Of a DNA stretch of 35,907 nt, positions 7,734-16,345 are shown one piece after another (position 1 is the stretch's first letter; each line of letters opens with the position of its first letter). A program made the position numbers and the translations under genes. Origin of the DNA: Bacteroidaceae bacterium (GTDB taxonomy: Bacteria; Bacteroidota; Bacteroidia; Bacteroidales; Bacteroidaceae); the NCBI GenBank assembly GCA_017379075.1, contig JAFNXL010000023.1:1-35907 (forward strand). The letters are read 5' to 3'. The notes beneath the pieces were generated by a model. That model was not told the DNA's origin. It ran no database searches and was given only the letters and a program-made list of their open reading frames with translations.

Positions 7734-7753
7734 GCGATTTTTCATAAAAAACT

Positions 7754-7895
7754 TATTGCTGTCCGGTAAAAAATCATGAATCGTTTCAAAAACAACATTT
7801 CCCCGGACATCCGTTAATATCCTTACAAGGGGGGGCTTGTAAAGCAAGAAAATCAGTGATTATAGACCCTTGCATATGTTTACCGGACAGCAATA
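7754..7895. mobile_element. IS remnant or MITE with 17-bp perfect inverted repeats
   Basis: Bases 7754-7770 (TATTGCTGTCCGGTAAA) are exactly complementary to 7879-7895. The 142-bp unit carries no coding frame. No convincing target duplication is visible next to the repeats. It may be a small non-autonomous transposable element, or two ends left after internal deletion of an IS. It marks the junction between the efflux operon and the low-GC island. The ends differ from those of the element at 219-412, so two different families are represented. Confidence 0.6.
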
Positions 7896-8004
7896 GTTTG
7901 TTTCGTTAGGTAACAGCAAACAGCACCAAAGCCTATTATCATAAAAGTATGATAGCAAAGGTATTTAAGGCTATTTGATAAGCATTACAATCAAAAAACT
8001 TTTG

Positions 8005-8041: not shown

Positions 8042-9070
8042 ATGAAGGATATAACCGTATCAAGAACATACAACGAAGAGGAGTATAACGAACTTCTGCG
8101 ACAGGCTGTCGCAGTAATAGAAACCTCTCGATTACAGATTGCAAAACAACTGAACACAGTTGCTATGTCATCATATTGGGAGATTGGCAAGTTGTTAGAA
8201 GAATGTAAACTTGATAGCAAACACGGCGATGGCGTTGTAGAAAGATTGTCAGTTGATTTGAAAGCCAAATATCCCGATATGGGTTTGTCTCCAAGAAACC
8301 TGTGGGATATGAAGAGATTTTATCTTCGTTATAATGAGTGTGATACAAAACTGCGACAGGCTGTCGCAGTTTTACCGTGGAGTCACAATTTGCTTCTTTT
8401 GAGCTATGATTTGTCTCCTGAGTACGTGGTATTTTACGCAAATGAAGTGATTACAAAAGGTTGGTCAAGAGATACGCTTCGCCACGCATTGAAATCCGAG
8501 TACCATCTTTCTATCCAAACAATAGAAAAATCCAACAACTTTACAACCACACTGCCTGCTCAGCAGGCCGAATATGCAAATGAGGTGTTCCGAAGCAGTT
8601 ATAACCTCGGATTCATTGATGCTATTGAGCCATTGAAAGAGTTGGAGTTGGAGCGTCGTCTAGTTCAGAAGATTACCACATTTATAATGGAATTGGGTAG
8701 TGGTTTCAGTTTCATCGGTAATCAGCATACGCTAACTTTCAACGATAAGGAGTATAGAGTTGATTTACTCTTCTTCCATCGCCGACTTCGCTCTATGGTT
8801 GCCATAGAATTAAAGATTGGCGAGTTTAAGCCTGAATATGTGGGTAAGATGAACTTCTACCTGTCGCTATTGGATAAGTTTGAGAAAGCTCCCGATGAAA
8901 ATCCGTCTATCGGAATCATACTTTGTGCTGAGAAAGACCACTTGGAAGTAGAGTTGGCTCTGCAAGATGTAAATAAACCTATTGGTGTGGCTGAATATCA
9001 ATACTTATTACCTAAAAATCAGTTGCAAGAATTGGTAGCAAATGAGATGAAGAAATCAGAGAACTTATAA
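8042..9070 (+). CDS. YhcG/DUF1016-family PDDEXK nuclease-domain protein
   Basis: The 342-aa product has the two-part YhcG architecture. The N-terminal DUF1016 helical domain (about 10-165) includes SSYWEIGKLL, YPDMGLSPRNLWDMKRFY and LPWSHNLLL. The C-terminal PDDEXK-like nuclease fold (about 200-335) shows Asp241 in EYRVDLLFFH and the ExK pair Glu256/Lys258 in AIELKIGEF, so the active site looks intact. Family members are found in restriction-rich and defence loci and near mobile elements; the exact role is unclear. The gene stands alone with its own -7 box. Unusual: a 20-nt palindromic sequence occurs twice, in the same codon phase, giving LRQAVAV at residues 19-25 and 104-110. Confidence 0.88.
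   Translation: MKDITVSRTYNEEEYNELLRQAVAVIETSRLQIAKQLNTVAMSSYWEIGKLLEECKLDSKHGDGVVERLSVDLKAKYPDMGLSPRNLWDMKRFYLRYNECDTKLRQAVAVLPWSHNLLLLSYDLSPEYVVFYANEVITKGWSRDTLRHALKSEYHLSIQTIEKSNNFTTTLPAQQAEYANEVFRSSYNLGFIDAIEPLKELELERRLVQKITTFIMELGSGFSFIGNQHTLTFNDKEYRVDLLFFHRRLRSMVAIELKIGEFKPEYVGKMNFYLSLLDKFEKAPDENPSIGIILCAEKDHLEVELALQDVNKPIGVAEYQYLLPKNQLQELVANEMKKSENL
8096..8115 (+). repeat. Intragenic palindromic repeat, copy 1
   Basis: CTGCGACAGGCTGTCGCAGT: the first 19 nt form a perfect palindrome with 9-bp arms around a single G. It lies inside the YhcG-like gene and encodes LRQAVAV. It is identical to the copy at 8351-8370. Confidence 0.85.
8351..8370 (+). repeat. Intragenic palindromic repeat, copy 2
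   Basis: Identical 20-nt sequence to 8096-8115, same reading phase, again encoding LRQAVAV, just before the conserved LPWSHN segment of the DUF1016 domain. The hairpin in DNA or mRNA would have a 9-bp stem. Confidence 0.85.
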
Positions 9071-9220
9071 TATAACCTAAAAAACTTTGTCAGATTTGTA
9101 CTAATCAAAATATTATAACAGGGAACCTTATTTAGAATTTCACGAAGTTGTTTTGAAATTCAAAGATATATTCTTTTGTGTTAGAAATTATATGTTTTTG
9201 TAATAAAGAGAATCTATAAT

Positions 9221-10582
9221 ATGGAAGATAATTTTTACAAACAGTATAAAATATTTGTATCGTCTCCCGGGGATGTAAAAAAAGAAAGAGAAATAGTAGA
9301 TACTGTTGTCTCAAAGATTAACGAGTCCATTAGTGAATCGTTAAAGGTTAACCTTAAAGTCGTGATGTGGGAAAAATTACCCCCAGAGACAACAATCGAG
9401 ACTATACAAGACCGTTTGAATCAAAAAGTGTCCGAATGTCACTTCTTCTTGTTGATTTTAAATAAAAGGTATGGCACAATTCAGCCTGGTCATGAAATTT
9501 CTAATACAGAGCGAGAGGTTAATACAATTTTAGAACACTTAAAGCAGAACGGAAAGAAAACAATTCTATCTTATTTTAAAGATATCCCTAATAATGAGGA
9601 TCCTGGAACACAGGAGAAGCAAATTAGGGAATTAAGAAATAAGTTAGCATCGAATCCCTGCTGGCTATATTCACCATATAGAAATGTTCAAGATTTTGAG
9701 AGGCTACTGACTCATAATTTATATAGGATTCTTTTACGAATGAATTCATCTTCTTTCAAAATTGATCAGTTGAAGAAATTCTGGCGCGCAGGTAAGTTGG
9801 ACGGTCAACCTATTCCTAGGATAGCAATTATCTATCCACCTGTTCCTAAAATTAGGATGTCTTCTTTAGATATAAATCTTTGGCAAAGAAGATTATTACC
9901 ACATTTGTTTTATGAAGACCATAAAGCATTGCATAAGATATTAAAAAATTTATCTATGGTAGGTCATCAAGATTATCGTGTATATTCTAAACATGACTTA
10001 CCAAATGAACTAGACCAGATTAATGTCATCTGGATATGTCTTCCAAGACTAAAGAAAGGAATGGAAGAATTAAGTCACCAAAAGGATCGAAACTTTGATA
10101 TTGTTACTCCGAAGGATACTGATACTCAAGAATCACATATTCTTTGGAATATAAAAAGTAAGCCTATAAAGGTCAACTCTCCATTAAGGAGATATCTTAA
10201 AGCTCAAAGAAAAGAAACTGATCCTAGTAATGATTGGGATATAACCTTAAATAAGATTGTTGTAAAAGACTATGCTATAATCTCGAGGTTTGATAGGCTG
10301 TCAGCTCGCTATAACTATAAACCTAATGGTTTAAAATCGTTCTTCATTGCTGGAATTCACGGTCTTGGTACTTGGGGAGCCACTTGGTACATTGATCGTA
10401 GGTACGAGATCTTTAAAGAACAATCTTTAGAGGGAAGTGTACAAATTCTCGTGGAAGTTGAGTATCGTGACGGCAGAATTTACAATGTTGTGGATGTGTC
10501 AAACTGCTCTCAAGAATATTTTGAAGATGAAAATAAGATGTCAAGAATACGGCAACTTATAAAACAGTACAAAGAGGAATAA
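9221..10582 (+). CDS. DUF4062-domain protein with unknown C-terminal domain (putative defence protein)
   Basis: The 453-aa product begins with a DUF4062 domain (about 8-175), recognised by KIFVSSPGDVKKERE at 10-24, the following acidic helix, and a middle strand HFFLLILNKRYG. DUF4062 is a TIR-like alpha/beta domain often placed at the N-terminus of multidomain immune-type proteins. The C-terminal half (about 195-453) is not one I can name; it has alternating hydrophobic strands (RIAIIYPP at 200, INVIWICLP at 267) and a glycine-rich segment GIHGLGTWGATWYID at 378-392, which suggests a Rossmann-like or ligand-binding fold. No TM segment and no partner gene: the gap to the next gene contains a terminator. 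The low GC matches the island. A sensor-effector protein is a reasonable inference, not shown. Confidence 0.72.
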   Translation: MEDNFYKQYKIFVSSPGDVKKEREIVDTVVSKINESISESLKVNLKVVMWEKLPPETTIETIQDRLNQKVSECHFFLLILNKRYGTIQPGHEISNTEREVNTILEHLKQNGKKTILSYFKDIPNNEDPGTQEKQIRELRNKLASNPCWLYSPYRNVQDFERLLTHNLYRILLRMNSSSFKIDQLKKFWRAGKLDGQPIPRIAIIYPPVPKIRMSSLDINLWQRRLLPHLFYEDHKALHKILKNLSMVGHQDYRVYSKHDLPNELDQINVIWICLPRLKKGMEELSHQKDRNFDIVTPKDTDTQESHILWNIKSKPIKVNSPLRRYLKAQRKETDPSNDWDITLNKIVVKDYAIISRFDRLSARYNYKPNGLKSFFIAGIHGLGTWGATWYIDRRYEIFKEQSLEGSVQILVEVEYRDGRIYNVVDVSNCSQEYFEDENKMSRIRQLIKQYKEE

Positions 10583-10967
10583 GGCAGTGTTCAAAATATA
10601 GTTTAAATGAGAAAACTGGATTTAGACAAGTTGGCACCATCCATAATTTTGTGTAAATAGAGATTACAGGGTTCAGCAATATGAACTCTGTAATTTTTAT
10701 TAATATCTCTGGAAAAATCTAACGAATGAGGGAAAATAATGATGGCAGCACTGGTGTTCAATGACTTATGAGGACTTATGATGAAAGCCTCGCCGATGCG
10801 AAAGTGCAAGGAAATGAAGGGTAATGAGAGCGAAAGGTTTTCAAATCATTACCCGATAGAGAGGTAAGTTTATAGGTCGTTAGAGTTTATTTCTACTCTC
10901 TGCCATATTCTGCATAACAGTGCACAACTCGCTGATAACTAATTTTATAACCAAAAAGAATTGGATT
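10583..10967. other. Intergenic gap before the integrase remnant
   Basis: This 385-bp gap holds the terminator at 10663-10698 and an inverted repeat with 9-bp perfect arms (gggtaatga at 10819-10827, tcattaccc at 10846-10854). Such a structure next to a tyrosine recombinase gene could be part of a former attachment site, but no second copy was found. No coding frame is supported. Confidence 0.45.
10663..10698 (+). terminator. Rho-independent terminator after the DUF4062 gene
   Basis: A 12-bp stem with one G-U pair (ATTACAGGGTTC at 10663-10674 against GAACTCTGTAAT at 10683-10694), an 8-nt loop, and a run of five T directly after. It lies 80 bp downstream of the stop codon. Confidence 0.7.
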
Positions 10968-11744
10968 ATGCGAAGTACATTTAAGGTGCTGTTCTATGTG
11001 AACGGAAGCAAAGAGAAAAACGGTATTGTCCCCATTATGGGGCGAGTTACAATCAATGGCTCGGTGGCACAATTCAGTTGCAAACTGACCATTGCAAAAA
11101 CAATGTGGGATATTAAAGGCAAGAGCAAGGAGGCACGAGACATCAATTTGGCTTTGGATAACATCAAGGCTCAAATCATCAAGCATTACCAACGTATTTC
11201 AGATAGAGAAGCGATTGCAACTGCCGAAATGGTACGTAATGCCTATCAAGGAATAGGAACGGAGTATGAAACACCGCTCGGTGTATTTGATAAGGACAAC
11301 GAAAGTTTCAAGAAGCGTATCGGCATAGACCATGCAGCAAGTTCCTACAAAGTGCGTGTAAGGTCTCGAAATCATTTGACGACGTTCATCAAGAAGTGCT
11401 ACAAGCGAAGCGATATTTCTATGCTTGAACTTACTCCCGACTTTATAAAGGAGTATTAAATTTACCTCTCTACTGATGCAGGACTACATAATGATAGTGT
11501 ATGGTCGCATTGTATGTGGCTGAAGACAATAGTGTCAAAGGCTCATTACTATGGACTGACACCAAGAAATCCGTTTGCTCAGTATCGTGTAAATCAGAAT
11601 ATTAAGGAGCGACAATACCTTACAGAAGAAGAAATCAAATCTGTGATGACACACGAATTTGCAGATAAGAAGTTGGCTTACATTCTTCCGTTGCCGTCTG
11701 CGGTTTTAAGTACAGGCTTGAAAGGGGAAAGGTTTTCGGGGTGA
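10968..11744 (+). pseudogene. Broken tyrosine recombinase (Bacteroidetes integrase)
   Basis: From ATG 10968 the frame gives MRSTFKVLFYVNGSKEKNG, the arm-binding N-terminus of Bacteroidetes conjugative-transposon and phage integrases, followed by the SAM-like core-binding domain. A TAA at 11457-11459 interrupts it, yet the same frame continues integrase-like beyond it (IYLSTDAGLHNDSVWSHCMW, then LKTIVSKAHYYGLTPRNPFA and QYLTEEEIKSVM). After about 11690 (KKLAY) the similarity stops and the remaining residues are unrelated, so the catalytic domain with the R-H-R-Y residues is missing. The gene therefore carries a nonsense mutation and a 3' truncation and cannot be active. It indicates that the island arrived or grew through an integrase-bearing element. 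Confidence 0.82.
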
Positions 11745-11752
11745 ATACTCTC

Positions 11753-12034
11753 AGAAGGAGGAAGATTCAGCCCGAAACGGCTTGCCGCTCGACCTTTCAA
11801 CTTTCAAATGAAGTCTGTACTTCCTTTGCAGACGAGCAACGAAAATGGGTGATTGGCGGAATCGGGAAACTCATAATATCACAGATTGATGATAGGCCAA
11901 ATTCAAATAATTGCACCGATACAATAAAATCTTCACCACCTTTTTGCCCATTCATAAAAAAGTTATACCTTTGTGTATCAAGAATTATCTTATTGGTTCA
12001 AAACAATTAAGAACTCTAAAATAGGAATGGTTGC
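11753..12034 (+). repeat. Promoter-bearing direct repeat, copy A
   Basis: This segment recurs at 15031-15304. The core from 11812 to 11973 matches with about 17 differences in about 165 bp by eye (roughly 90%); the outer parts are less similar. It contains a full Bacteroidetes promoter and lies just upstream of the ATPase-HNH genes. An apparent 89-codon frame across it (11741-12010) is not conserved as protein: most differences between the two copies change the amino acid. Confidence 0.85.
11943..11973 (+). promoter_or_regulatory. Bacteroidetes promoter in repeat A
   Basis: TTTG at 11943-11946, a 19-bp spacer, and TACCTTTG at 11966-11973 match the -33/-7 consensus closely. It points at the ATPase-HNH pair, leaving a leader of about 215 nt before the ATG at 12196. 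Confidence 0.75.
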
Positions 12035-12195
12035 AGAATATGTATACTTTGAATTTGTGCTTACCGGTTTGCAGATTCTCCCAACCTGCTCACCCCAGAT
12101 AAGCGAGGGTACTTCGGATTGAAATTCTAAAATATAATAAATCAGTTTTCAGCAGAGGTAAAACGGTTATTTGTGGATTTGTAATTTATAAACTT
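11974..12195 (+). other. Long leader of the ATPase-HNH operon
   Basis: About 220 nt between the repeat A promoter and the ATPase start. The first 60 nt belong to repeat A; the rest is unique to this copy. I see no open frame and no strong hairpin. A structured RNA cannot be excluded by eye, but no reverse transcriptase gene is present that would suggest a retron. Confidence 0.4.
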
Positions 12196-14133
12196 ATGGC
12201 TATTACACGTGAACAACGCTTAGAAATATATAAATCAATAAATGCTTTAGGCAGTATCTGGGGACAATCAGGGATAATTGACAAGGTGCAATTTCTGAAT
12301 AGAATTTGGGAATTGCGACTAATGTCATCTTCTGATCCTCGATTTAAGACTGCGGCAGAAGATGCAAAGAAACATCTTATAGATAATGATGATTGGGATG
12401 ACGATTATGTATTTCTTGACAGATTCAAACTCCTTGATTGTGATGAAGAAGAATTTCTCAAATTTCTTAATGTTGTCATCAGCCCAAAAGTAAGATCTGA
12501 TGAGAATGAAATAGAAGAATACATTTCTGTCATAGAGTCATTATTGCCAAAAGAATATGAGATAATTGAAACGACAGACAAGAATGGGCAAATATCCCAT
12601 TCCGTCTTAATGAAAAATAAAGATCATGGTGAAAAAGAACTTTATCCAATCGGAGTGAATCAAAATGATATACCATTTTTCACAAACATAGTACCCACAA
12701 AATACCCAGCTTTTCAGATTAGAACTAATATATGGGATGATTTTGGGTATAAAACGAGTTCAGAATTATATTATTGGGATGATAATGCCCAATACGAGCC
12801 TATTGGCAGACTAAAAATTCTCAACTCCGAAGAAGAGAATACAAGTAAGATACTGCCCCAATCGTTCATGTCGTTAGGTGCAGCTTTCTGCAGTTTAGGG
12901 CAAAGTGAACACTATTACATAAAACTAAAACAATTATTTCCTAACAGATATCAATCTGTATTGTACGCATTAAAAGATACTGCCTGGTTTTCTGAAATTC
13001 AGTATCGTTTTGAAAATCATCAAGGTTTTAAGAGATCTCTTTTAAGGGATGGAGCTACAGATGCGCTTTTATCTAGCGCCAGACGTAAAGTTGAGAGAGG
13101 AGAAGATGAATCATGGAATTTTATGTTCAAAACCAAAGTCCCATATTCCGAACAACCAATTGATATTCAATTTGAATTTGGTGATCTTGAAGATGAGGAC
13201 AATCCCTATCGTATAAAAGCCTTGATTGGCGCCAATGGGTCGGGTAAGACTTCTATTATGAAGGCTCTTGTGAAAAGTCTTATTCGCAACGAAGGCTGTT
13301 TTTCCCCATCTCATCCTGTTTTTTCAAAAGTAATAGCTATCTCATTTAGCATTTTTGATACTTTTATATCCCTTAGAGGAAAGTCTGTTCTTACTTATAC
13401 GTACTGTGGACTTCATGATAAAGAAAATACAGTCATGTCTGTAGAGGACCGCGAAGCTCGTTTAAGAGAATCATTGATTTGGATTAATGGTGGTGAGGAA
13501 GGAAAAGTATTTGGCAATACACAACTGATCAAACGATTTTGCAATGGTCTTGAAGTTGTCTTTCCCAAAGATTGGGTTGATTCTGTTTGGACAGATGGCG
13601 GTTTAGCAATAAATACAATTTTAGAGAAATCTCGGACAATGAGTACTGGCGAAGCGATGATTCTTAATCTTGTTGCTTCTTTATACGCAAATATACGACA
13701 AAACTCTCTTATAGTATTTGATGAAATGGAAGTACACCTTCATCCAAAAGCGATTCGTCAAATGATGTCGCTTCTATTCAAAATTACCAAGGAGTTCAAT
13801 TCTGCTTGTATATTAGCAACTCATTCTTCTATTGTAGTCCAAGAATTGTTAGCCGACAATGTTATAATTATTGATAAACTTCAGGATGGAACCCCAGAAC
13901 TACGTATTCTAAATCATGAATCGTTAGCTGAAAATCTTTCTGTGATAAGCGATGAAATCTTTGGAGAGGCATCTATTTCTCCACATTATAAGACTTTTAT
14001 CCGAACAAAAGCTCAGAATTCAGAAACTTTAGAGGCATTACTTCAACAACTCTCTTCACGAGATCTACCACCAAGTTTAGCTCTCTATATGCAGGCTAGT
14101 TACGAATTTGAAAATAGAAGAAACAATGATTAA
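12196..14133 (+). CDS. ABC-type AAA ATPase with AbiJ-NTD3-like N-terminus (defence ATPase)
   Basis: The 645-aa product has three visible parts. Residues about 1-115 resemble the AbiJ N-terminal domain 3 family: the WDDDYVFLDRF segment near 67-77 and EEFLKFLNVVISPKVR near 85-100 are the recognisable elements. Residues about 120-300 are an uncharacterised linker or sensor part. Residues about 310-600 form an OLD/RecF-like ABC ATPase: Walker A GANGSGKT (345-352), a signature-like MSTGEAMI (near 481), Walker B SLIVFDEMEVHLHP (near 503-517) and a switch histidine in ATHSS (near 543). Every ATPase motif is intact. It overlaps the HNH gene by 8 nt, so both proteins are made together, as in Septu (PtuA-PtuB). 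I infer that it senses infection and controls the nuclease. Confidence 0.8.
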   Translation: MAITREQRLEIYKSINALGSIWGQSGIIDKVQFLNRIWELRLMSSSDPRFKTAAEDAKKHLIDNDDWDDDYVFLDRFKLLDCDEEEFLKFLNVVISPKVRSDENEIEEYISVIESLLPKEYEIIETTDKNGQISHSVLMKNKDHGEKELYPIGVNQNDIPFFTNIVPTKYPAFQIRTNIWDDFGYKTSSELYYWDDNAQYEPIGRLKILNSEEENTSKILPQSFMSLGAAFCSLGQSEHYYIKLKQLFPNRYQSVLYALKDTAWFSEIQYRFENHQGFKRSLLRDGATDALLSSARRKVERGEDESWNFMFKTKVPYSEQPIDIQFEFGDLEDEDNPYRIKALIGANGSGKTSIMKALVKSLIRNEGCFSPSHPVFSKVIAISFSIFDTFISLRGKSVLTYTYCGLHDKENTVMSVEDREARLRESLIWINGGEEGKVFGNTQLIKRFCNGLEVVFPKDWVDSVWTDGGLAINTILEKSRTMSTGEAMILNLVASLYANIRQNSLIVFDEMEVHLHPKAIRQMMSLLFKITKEFNSACILATHSSIVVQELLADNVIIIDKLQDGTPELRILNHESLAENLSVISDEIFGEASISPHYKTFIRTKAQNSETLEALLQQLSSRDLPPSLALYMQASYEFENRRNND

Positions 14134-14980
14134 GTATCCCTTATATCAATTTCCCGTTAATGGTGTGACTCCATTTGATGAGTATAAAACTGCAGCACAT
14201 GGAGATGCCATTCTTGATGCTGTTGAAACACAGATAGAGGGTTGTTATAATGATTATGAAAATGCAGTCAATAGTGCTTCTGTCCACAATCTGAGCCCTC
14301 ACGGTTTTGTCGATCCAGAAAAGGAACATTTAAAAAAACTATATAAAAGCGATTGTGATATAGCTAAAAAAATACGACAGCATCATAGCACATTTACTAG
14401 TACTACAAAAAGAGTTTATAACAACAAATGTCCATATTGTACATTGTCTGAGCCTGATACAATAGAACATATTCTTCCAAAAGATAAATATCCGGAATTT
14501 GCCATTCATTTATATAATCTAATTCCATGTTGCTCTAAATGTAATAGACATAAGAGTGAAGCTGTCAGTGATCAATATGGGTTGCCCTATACCATAAACT
14601 TTTACTATCATGACCCAGAATATTGTCAATTTTTGGAGGTCGATTGTATTATTGACAATAAAGGATTCCCATCATTCAAATATAAACTTACTTTTCCTCA
14701 AGGTGTAGATCCAACATTGACAGCTATAATAACCAATCATTTTAACAGACTTCATCTGATTGAACGATATAATGAGGAAGTTATAAGGTGTTATACAAAA
14801 ACTGAATTAACGATAGAATCTCTATTTAGAGGGAAACCTTTAAATGATGCATTACAATACCTCAAAAACTATCTATCCATTATAATAAACGATTATGGAT
14901 TGAACCACCATCATATTGCTATGATAAGATGTATGATCGGTTCGCCAATATATCATGCCTATTTGCAATCAAGATTGTAA
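14126..14980 (+). CDS. HNH endonuclease, partner of the upstream ATPase
   Basis: The 284-aa product contains a zinc-bound HNH fold: CPYC at 102-105, the catalytic DTIEHILPKDKYPEF with Glu114-His115, Asn131 in HLYNLIP, and CCSKCNRHKSEA with Cys136/Cys139. The arrangement C-x2-C, (E)H, N, C-x2-C-N-x-H is complete, so the nuclease should be active. ATG 14126 is chosen: it lies in ATGATTAA, overlapping the ATPase stop by 8 nt; a TTG six codons upstream is the alternative. Pairing of an ABC ATPase with an HNH nuclease is the layout of Septu and of some retron effectors; the AbiJ-NTD3-like head on the ATPase is not part of classic PtuA. The C-terminal 130 residues are helical and unassigned. Confidence 0.85.
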   Translation: MIKYPLYQFPVNGVTPFDEYKTAAHGDAILDAVETQIEGCYNDYENAVNSASVHNLSPHGFVDPEKEHLKKLYKSDCDIAKKIRQHHSTFTSTTKRVYNNKCPYCTLSEPDTIEHILPKDKYPEFAIHLYNLIPCCSKCNRHKSEAVSDQYGLPYTINFYYHDPEYCQFLEVDCIIDNKGFPSFKYKLTFPQGVDPTLTAIITNHFNRLHLIERYNEEVIRCYTKTELTIESLFRGKPLNDALQYLKNYLSIIINDYGLNHHHIAMIRCMIGSPIYHAYLQSRL

Positions 14981-15030
14981 ATACGTTAATGCTCTACTCT
15001 TAAGAAAATTATTGGAGGCTTATTGTTATA

Positions 15031-15304
15031 GAAGGAAGATTCTTCCCGACATAGTTTGCCACCTAACCATCACTTTCACCAAAGTCTGTACATCCTTTGC
15101 AGACGAGCAACGGAAATGTGTGATTAGCAGAATAGGAAAACCTAAAATATCACGGATTGATGATAGACCAAATTCAAATAATCGCACCTATACAATGAAA
15201 TCTTCACCACCTTTTTGCCTATTCATAAAAAAGTTATACCTTTGTTGCAAAGAGTTATCACATTGGTGCAAAACAATAATGAGCTCTGAAATAGGAACGG
15301 TTGC
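15031..15304 (+). repeat. Promoter-bearing direct repeat, copy B
   Basis: Second copy of the 11753-12034 repeat, same orientation, starting 50 bp after the HNH stop. The two copies therefore bracket the ATPase-HNH operon exactly. Both share the stretch GTCTGTAC..TCCTTTGCAGAC, the tract CCAAATTCAAATAAT and the promoter. Confidence 0.85.
15214..15244 (+). promoter_or_regulatory. Bacteroidetes promoter in repeat B
   Basis: TTTG at 15214-15217, 19-bp spacer, TACCTTTG at 15237-15244, the same geometry as in repeat A. It would transcribe the two small genes at 15582-16345 with a leader of about 330 nt. Confidence 0.7.
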
Positions 15305-15581
15305 CATCTCGTTACCCAATTTCCATGCAACCCGAATAACCGTTTAATTCTAAGATAATTGCAAATTCTGCGATTTTTCCATAAAAAAAACTATTTTGGG
15401 GCAATAAATGGAAAAAAGTTTCTAACTTTACAACAGATTTGGCAGATAAAACAAAAAAGGCATAATAATTAATATATAAAATGTACCTTTCGAAAATGGT
15501 TTTATAAGTATTTTGGTTTATATATTTAACAGAAAATTTATAACGATGGGATCAGACGCATAATTCATCAAAACTAAAGGA

Positions 15582-15872
15582 ATGAAAATCTACAATTTTC
15601 TAAAAACGTATATTGGGCCAACGTTTGGTTTAATTGCTTCACTATGTTCTATTGTAAGCCTGATATTATTATTCGTGAATAACAAATTGGCTCTTATTGT
15701 TGCATTGTCTTTTTTTTGTATTGCATTATTTATTATACTATGTGGTATAATGATTGGTATCAATAAAATGATAAAAGACAATTCAGCAGAAGAATACAAG
15801 CGTATTGCATCTTTTTTTTCGTACCAATCAAGCGATGGAGTAAAATCTACATTTGAAGTCTTCCGTATGTGA
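15582..15872 (+). CDS. Small two-TM membrane protein, unknown
   Basis: The 96-aa product has two hydrophobic helices (about 11-32 and 36-60) joined by a very short NNK turn, then a soluble tail of 36 residues. ATG 15582 follows AAAGGA closely, an unusually good ribosome-binding context for this organism. The stop overlaps the GTG start of the next gene in GTGA, which implies translational coupling. I do not recognise the family. A compact double-TM protein at the end of a defence-like island, paired with a soluble protein, fits a membrane-disrupting effector with a sensor or inhibitor, but that is inference. The soluble tail runs smoothly into the next frame, so the two may once have been one protein, or one base may be missing. 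Confidence 0.6.
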   Translation: MKIYNFLKTYIGPTFGLIASLCSIVSLILLFVNNKLALIVALSFFCIALFIILCGIMIGINKMIKDNSAEEYKRIASFFSYQSSDGVKSTFEVFRM

Positions 15873-16345
15873 TTCAAAGCAAACGATTCTACCTTGCAGA
15901 AATCCCCTACAATTTCAAATGGACAGGTTCAACTCCTCCGCAATTATCCTCACGTTCCCAAATAATCGCAAACGTTAAATATAATCCAAACAAGACACAA
16001 TGGGATGGAGCCGTAATAAGGTTTCCCCAACCTCTTAAATACAATGAATGCGCAGTCGTAAATGTAAAAACCGAGAATGATGATTATGACAATACTGCAC
16101 AACCACATTTATCAAGCAAATTAGAGGCACCCATTGATGTGATTACCTTTAGGGTGCTACTTGCTTATAAGCCAAATAGTTTCAATACCCCCGCAAAACT
16201 TCTGCGCAAAAGAATTGGCACAGAAATAGATGGAGGATATGAAACATTAGAAAGCATTCCTTTCGACAGAGAACACAAATTGTATTATCATTGTCTTATA
16301 AACCCAGAACCCGGTTACATATACAAAATTGAGTGGGAGAAATAA
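15869..16345 (+). CDS. Unknown beta-rich soluble protein coupled to the two-TM protein
   Basis: The 158-aa frame starts with GTG inside the stop codon of the preceding gene (GTGA overlap). The sequence IPYNFKWTGSTPPQL, a long polar middle with alternating hydrophobic residues (AVIRFPQPLKYNECAVVNVK), and ITFRVLLAYKP suggest a beta-sandwich-like domain. There is no TM helix, no signal peptide and no catalytic motif I can point to. Its frame has a TGA at 15854, so it cannot extend upstream except by a shift within 15857-15869. It may be the cytoplasmic domain of a split two-TM effector, or a separate regulator. The gene ends before the terminator at 16405-16453. Confidence 0.55.
   Translation: MIQSKRFYLAEIPYNFKWTGSTPPQLSSRSQIIANVKYNPNKTQWDGAVIRFPQPLKYNECAVVNVKTENDDYDNTAQPHLSSKLEAPIDVITFRVLLAYKPNSFNTPAKLLRKRIGTEIDGGYETLESIPFDREHKLYYHCLINPEPGYIYKIEWEK

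Follow-up and report, generated by a model that had tools for sequence, protein, structure and literature searches.

The two direct repeats that enclose an ATPase-HNH gene pair in a Bacteroidaceae bacterium (assembly GCA_017379075.1, contig JAFNXL010000023.1, positions 1 to 35,907; this whole stretch is called the window here) are very probably right ends of a family of integrative mobilizable elements found in many Bacteroidales, and not a unit driving exchangeable cargo. The sequence-only reading, made from the letters of this DNA before any database was searched, had taken them for a standard promoter-leader in front of swappable defence modules. Our analysis replaces that cassette-exchange story with a testable account in which element ends, rather than dedicated promoters, would surround the defence genes. 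It also provides a hairpin model, two right termini and one left terminus as markers by which this group of mobile elements can be recognized across several Bacteroidales families.

The repeats themselves hold up as first described. Copy A (11756-12034) and copy B (15030-15304), whose starts lie 3270-3274 bp apart, are 83% identical over their whole length (BLAST, E 1.7e-75) and 90% identical over an ungapped 164-nt core on either side of the ATPase-HNH pair. Both carry the rightward promoter TTTG-N19-TACCTTTG, correctly recognized at the outset as near consensus and aimed at the next gene; the longest run identical between the copies is 25 bp and spans the -7 part of this promoter. A coding role for the repeat was rejected, in agreement with the first reading, since the frame across the hairpin described below is interrupted in several relatives (CTCTGA variants), and the tyrosine integrase upstream is broken, as had been claimed of a dead integrase next door. 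No third copy is evident in the 3.0-Mb draft genome of the organism itself, where the 19 other matches all have E values of at least 0.39. The conserved stretch at copy A reaches further left, into a 169-nt hairpin (11681-11849), and the sequence of copy B runs on beyond 15304 to a terminus near 15376 that is common to relatives.

It is the relatives that identify the repeat. A whole-repeat family search gave matches, many of them partial, in 39 of 399 genomes (own genome included), and a scan of a sequence collection for the promoter pattern gave 63 loci. At 60 of these the rest of the module is shared and ends in one of two fixed termini, type i (...TTGCAAATTCTGCGATTTTT) at 16 loci and type ii (...GATTATTCCAAA) at 44, while L070, L072 and L121 are without an element end. 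Beyond the terminus, the 60 loci have 60 different flanks. Because fixed termini are joined to flanks that all differ, the DNA after the module reads as an integration site and the module as the end of something integrated. The next open reading frame (ORF) of at least 100 aa could be assigned at 56 loci (none at L074, L094, L098 and L101); 55 were scanned, L092 having been left out of alignment A3, and none matched a PADLOC family at E 1e-5. Among their Pfam assignments, the 25 listed of 66 families are mostly ordinary chromosomal ones such as glutamate dehydrogenase, SurE, PdxA and AIR carboxylase, and one next protein (L129) is an XerD-like member of the integrase family. L095 and L122 both lie before a glutamate dehydrogenase gene, with differing flanks. 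The outward promoter is intact in all 14 relatives whose whole-repeat match reaches it (position 219), with a spacer one base shorter in L052; this count excludes the 63 loci selected by their promoter and the other places in the family search, which matched in part, mostly in the hairpin. Matches of 137-141 bp had pointed to TACCTTTG as the edge of a module; this was dropped for ten of them (L133-L142), which lie at contig ends and resemble assembly overlaps.

These observations make it improbable that the repeat is a standard promoter-leader before exchangeable defence cargoes, with the cassette lost by recombination between copies. That model draws on the two promoter-bearing copies facing two different modules, on the promoter being their best conserved stretch, and on a DUF1016 nuclease gene that also adjoins an end module in the same genus (L189). 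However, the flank changes at each of 60 of the 63 loci, none of the 55 next genes matches a PADLOC family, only 34 of the 56 next ORFs are oriented with the promoter (22 oppose it), the longest identical run between the copies is 25 bp, and no second bracketed cargo was seen. The core does occur elsewhere with differing neighbors, as had been foreseen, but what follows it is an integration site, and cargo in relatives lies left of the right end, inside the element (L065, L038). No other pair of right ends enclosing a cargo appeared: no contig held two right ends in 50 genomes, a negative that short contigs make weak, and G269 and G257 each have two matches on one contig, more than 140 kb apart and in the hairpin part only. 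The excised form was not seen either; among the matches listed in 138 other genomes of the genus, none covers either flank or the ATPase-HNH pair.

Within the genus, a complete type-i end was found in G479, hairpin-less type-i ends in G459 (twice), G208 and G482, and left ends in G259 and G535; a DUF1016 nuclease gene adjoins the end module (G208; L189, 9417-10782). The type-i right end at L189 is without the hairpin, and a tRNA-like sequence, recognized by eye, comes next; this may be a small non-autonomous element that carries one defence gene.

The order of an intact element would be left terminus, integrase, cargo and mobilization genes, two helix-turn-helix (HTH) genes, hairpin, outward promoter, arm-type sites and right terminus. 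Where contigs permit, two HTH_17 genes lie upstream of the right-end module, followed on the opposite strand by relaxase (PF03432) and NikA/MobC genes, and the far end of the element holds a tyrosine integrase (Phage_integrase and Arm-DNA-bind_5 in L065). Domains found in the elements of relatives comprise relaxase (MobA/VirD2-like), NikA/MobC, DUF3408, HTH_17 and integrase. In four named genomes a single contig contains both ends of the element, and by the end coordinates these elements measure about 19.8 kb (B. xylanisolvens XB1A), 16.4 kb (P. faecalis), 25.3 kb (M. massiliensis) and 10.9 kb (Muribaculum An289). The left terminus TATCTCTGGAAAAATC likewise joins different host DNA, in 28 flanks counting the window and 27 others. 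We read these as putative integrative mobilizable elements; conjugation genes were not noticed by eye in some ORF lists, and no scan for a type IV system was made. In the intact element of P. faecalis, clustered lipoprotein and surface genes resemble fimbrillin genes (L065:9934-15886, by eye).

A phage or plasmid origin was considered, as one partial record of a phage collection (MT835906) and one record of a plasmid collection (OY726017) match the repeat, and was not retained. OY726017 reads by eye as a chromosomal piece carrying an integrated element, and the promoter pattern is absent from viral contigs. The record filed as phage (L039, MT835906) has relaxase-like, integrase-like and restriction-modification-like ORFs besides the hairpin, and by eye looks like a mobilizable element.

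In the window, the remains of such elements and the genes among them are arranged as follows, all on the forward strand.

10704..11685, left terminus TATCTCTGGAAAAATC, then the 5' portion of a gene for a tyrosine integrase (Arm-DNA-bind_5), 90% identical in DNA to L038
10836..10854, putative integrase arm-type site GGTTTTCAAATCATTACCC of the left end, read by eye and related to the left-end motif of the second integrase class
10968-11459, integrase ORF, ended by a premature stop; homology breaks off at 11685
11681..11849, whole right-end hairpin, fused directly to the truncated integrase (fold, covariation, covariance model)
11756..12034, repeat copy A, comprising the right hairpin half, middle, promoter and start of a type-i end
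11942..11973, outward promoter of copy A, TTTG-N19-TACCTTTG
12029-12034, stop of copy A inside the arm-type motif (GGTTGC)
12196..14133, ATPase with AbiJ_NTD3 and AAA domains, PDC-M01A / PtuA-like (domain and PADLOC models)
14126..14980, HNH nuclease, PDC-M01B / PtuB-like (domain and PADLOC models)
15030..15304, repeat copy B, beginning at the hairpin apex, without the left arm
15213..15244, outward promoter of copy B
15299..15317, putative arm-type site GGTTGCCATCTCGTTACCC of the right end, in a stretch (15287-15317) with matches to the left ends of the second integrase class
15305..15376, rest of the type-i right terminus (...TTGCAAATTCTGCGATTTTT), beyond which flanking DNA begins; common to 16 type-i loci, which diverge after it, and also to own-genus loci
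15582..16345, ORFs of 96 and 158 aa after copy B, of no family

The most likely history of this arrangement is the stacking and decay of mobilizable elements around the defence pair. Remnants would have piled up there as a left end with half an integrase and two sister right ends of type i, broken at the hairpin base (copy A) and at the hairpin apex (copy B). The junction at 11685 joins the integrase straight to the hairpin base, and about 10 kb are missing relative to L038. In copy B only the part from the apex onward is left, and on the forward strand it is no longer detected by the covariance model. The left end and integrase resemble L038, a type-ii element, whereas both right ends are type i, so the window may be a chimera of a type-ii left end and type-i right ends. 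A second integrase class (74-82%, with other left ends) was found in 6 of 39 genomes (39 of the 50 right-end genomes were searched), and five of these six are among the 15 with a type-i right end, a weak co-occurrence hinting that such right ends pair with this class. In the remnant, the ATPase-HNH genes may now be expressed from promoter A, and the module beyond copy B from promoter B. The end of copy A was dropped as an integration junction, since it stops inside the arm-type motif (GGTTGC, 12034).

A local duplication would account for the two copies in another way: the right end of a single element was duplicated and the defence genes came to lie between the copies, with no second element. 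We consider this rather unlikely, although the copies are sisters over positions 67-219 (support 0.999) and have in common 17 derived states of 111 at positions 67-179. Each copy has its own breakpoints, A keeping a full hairpin without the terminus and B the reverse, and over positions 220-279 A and B are no more alike (80%) than either is to other type-i ends (82-88%).

Several points weigh against the history of stacked elements and should be set beside it. The sister relationship of the copies also fits local duplication, and an intact element of the A/B lineage did not turn up. Ten of the 15 genomes with a type-i right end lack the second integrase class, and the only right end found in G406, a genome with two type-ii left termini, is of type i; the window could thus be explained without a chimera. 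The attL and attR overlaps are not identical where both were compared. Finally, the slower decay of the middle and promoter of copy B hints at a retained function, and promoter B may still matter: the private changes of copy B number 16 of 63 in the orphan hairpin arm and 12 of 151 in positions 67-219, only one of which falls among the 40 promoter positions. The copies differ at one of these 40 positions (p 0.005 when compared with the rest, 0.12 when compared with positions 67-179).

The hairpin is a new part of these elements, covarying, better folded on one strand, and without an Rfam match. In copy A this long imperfect palindrome left of the promoter has a minimum free energy of -83 kcal/mol and a z score of -6.3 (computed over 11670-11880). 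Among 51 relatives (alignment A1, chosen from BLAST hits), 98.8% of cells pair, and both-sided changes occur in 19 of 45 pairs compared with 7.6 (standard deviation 1.5) in shuffled alignments, none of 500 shuffles reaching 19. When the structure is slid along the alignment, at most 5 such pairs remain. Neither control is perfect, as kinship can beat shuffles without any structure and a structure derived from the alignment tends to beat slides. G-U cells outnumber A-C cells 183 to 9, or 89 to 9 without two U-G pairs, a count that leans to the forward strand because the structure was derived on it. The other strand folds worse, with a consensus of -23.7 and 32 pairs against -35.1 and 45 pairs, and does so in 50 of 51 single folds. 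A covariance model (R1, built on 23 hairpins) scores copy A, a member of its seed, at 166 bits on the forward strand against 27 on the reverse. Rfam gave no match over the hairpin, and in the whole window only a tRNA at gathering level; in L116 (4150-4750) it gave three matches with E values up to 5 (best 0.59), none over the hairpin. No description of the hairpin or of the right-end family was found in the open-licence literature searched.

Under strict filters that may lose weak matches, the model finds the hairpin in 16 of 247 genomes of Bacteroidales, this one among them, whereas the 147 other genomes of a phylum-wide sample gave no match. Examination of 20 of the 21 other matches placed HTH genes within 1 kb upstream in 6, an opposite-strand integrase within 5 kb downstream in 13, and an opposite-strand relaxase upstream in 4; several of these contigs end early, and some matches have no HTH, integrase or relaxase gene. 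The whole hairpin is present in 30 of the 60 right ends. It is interrupted by an internal gap in L107, and in the remainder it either breaks off no more than 82 bases from a contig edge or is cut by that edge. Breaks in the same hairpin in L107 and L052 suggest that it may be fragile.

The flanks also tell where the elements insert. Bacteroides promoters have the form TTTG / TAnnTTTG. The left flanks of type-ii ends read ACAAAgATAntAAT and the right flanks AATAntnATTATtTTTG, and TAnnTTTG, which we take to be the -7 box of such promoters, stands exactly 9 bp past the type-ii right terminus in 17 of 55 distinct flanks, compared with 0.00058 per position in nearby DNA. Type-ii insertion is best explained by loose specificity for symmetric sites resembling CAAAnATA-N5-TATnTTTG, which contain the -7 box. 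Because the target matches a promoter box, insertion tends toward promoter-like sites, and the family thus shows a preference for host promoter boxes. The outward promoter would then feed the gene beside the insertion and compensate for the occupied promoter. In an excised circle, the same promoter would read across attP into an integrase gene that has no consensus promoter of its own: TTTG-N17-23-TAnnTTTG precedes the integrase in none of 21 distinct left ends, with a lone TAnnTTTG in 18 of them (26 hits, repeats included). A ACGGTTGCC...TCATTACCC motif is common to left ends of the second integrase class and to copy B at its right end (15287-15317), and we read such shared end motifs as putative integrase arm-type sites.

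A joint interpretation of these parts can be offered tentatively. On the transferred strand, the hairpin would function in single-stranded DNA (alternatively, as an RNA), for instance as a leading-strand origin or single-strand promoter upon entry into the recipient. SbcCD-like nucleases cleave hairpins, and mobilization genes are transferred last. The truncation of copy B at the apex would be the trace of an extruded hairpin that was cleaved. The outward promoter would be a switch, serving the integrase in the circle and, after integration, the host gene whose -7 box the element has occupied, which would make insertions harmless. Being conserved and strand-biased and having no Rfam match, the hairpin could raise the question of how an element starts up in a new cell, and both the hairpin and the promoter-box preference are parts worth following.

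The gene pair between the repeats is predicted to be a Septu-like (PDC-M01) defence pair. The ATPase (645 codons) matches PDC-M01A (E 4e-106) and, more weakly, Septu PtuA-like models, and the HNH gene matches PDC-M01B (E 1.6e-44) and, more weakly, PtuB-like models. Relatives of the ATPase in the sampled Bacteroidales are 28-38% identical, and none was confirmed in viral contigs. The leader at 12035-12195 had no relative in the genome and collection searches. It is barely credible that the locus is a degenerate cluster of recombinase-associated acquired interbacterial defence (rAID), which is defined by a tyrosine recombinase followed by co-oriented short genes parted by conserved intergenic motifs (PMC12247911). 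A recombinase remnant upstream, co-oriented AT-rich genes and repeated intergenic DNA recall such clusters, but in relatives the repeat forms the end of an element whose flanks vary, the ATPase far exceeds the range of about 100-300 codons, and there are only two copies.

Some neighboring sequences deserve mention. A DUF1016/YhcG nuclease (PDC-S02) gene and a DUF4062 gene (8042-10582) lie directly left of the element remnant, perhaps as part of a wider defence island. Repeats of about 64 and 100 bp at 7753-7905, before the DUF1016 gene, recur in the same genome (contig 23) and in G095 and G208 with 86-94% identity. After copy B, the 96-aa ORF, earlier described as a gene with two transmembrane segments, and the 158-aa ORF overlap by 4 bases in different frames and may be one frameshifted gene.

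Among known systems, the closest by description are integrative mobilizable elements of the Bacteroidetes such as Tn4555, NBU1, NBU2, Tn4399 and cLV25 (PMC5704250). They share with the present family a tyrosine integrase, a relaxase, presumed excisionase-like HTH genes and Bacteroidales hosts, and the relaxed site choice of Tn4555 resembles the type-ii target choice. In contrast, the promoter-box target, the outward right-end promoter and the hairpin are described here from the elements of this family. The attB core of CTnDOT is GTANNTTTGC. CTnDOT (IntDOT) likewise has a tyrosine integrase and a target with TAnnTTTG, and the differing left and right overlaps seen here resemble its coupling sequences; however, the present target reads as symmetric CAAAnATA-N5-TATnTTTG, and the four elements with both ends on one contig span about 11-25 kb with a relaxase and no conjugation genes noticed by eye. 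Frpo is a single-strand promoter of conjugative leading regions, and such promoters or origins resemble the hairpin, by description, in having a strand-biased fold near mobilization genes. The defence pair shares with Septu (PtuAB) and PDC-M01 systems an AAA ATPase followed by an HNH gene, PDC-M01A/B being the best models here. Tandem accretion of integrative mobilizable elements with decayed cis-mobilizable elements (CIMEs) is a known process (PMC5704250), and it similarly leaves decayed ends side by side and genes between att remnants. The present locus would differ from it if, as may be the case, its integrase end belonged to one element type and its right ends to another.

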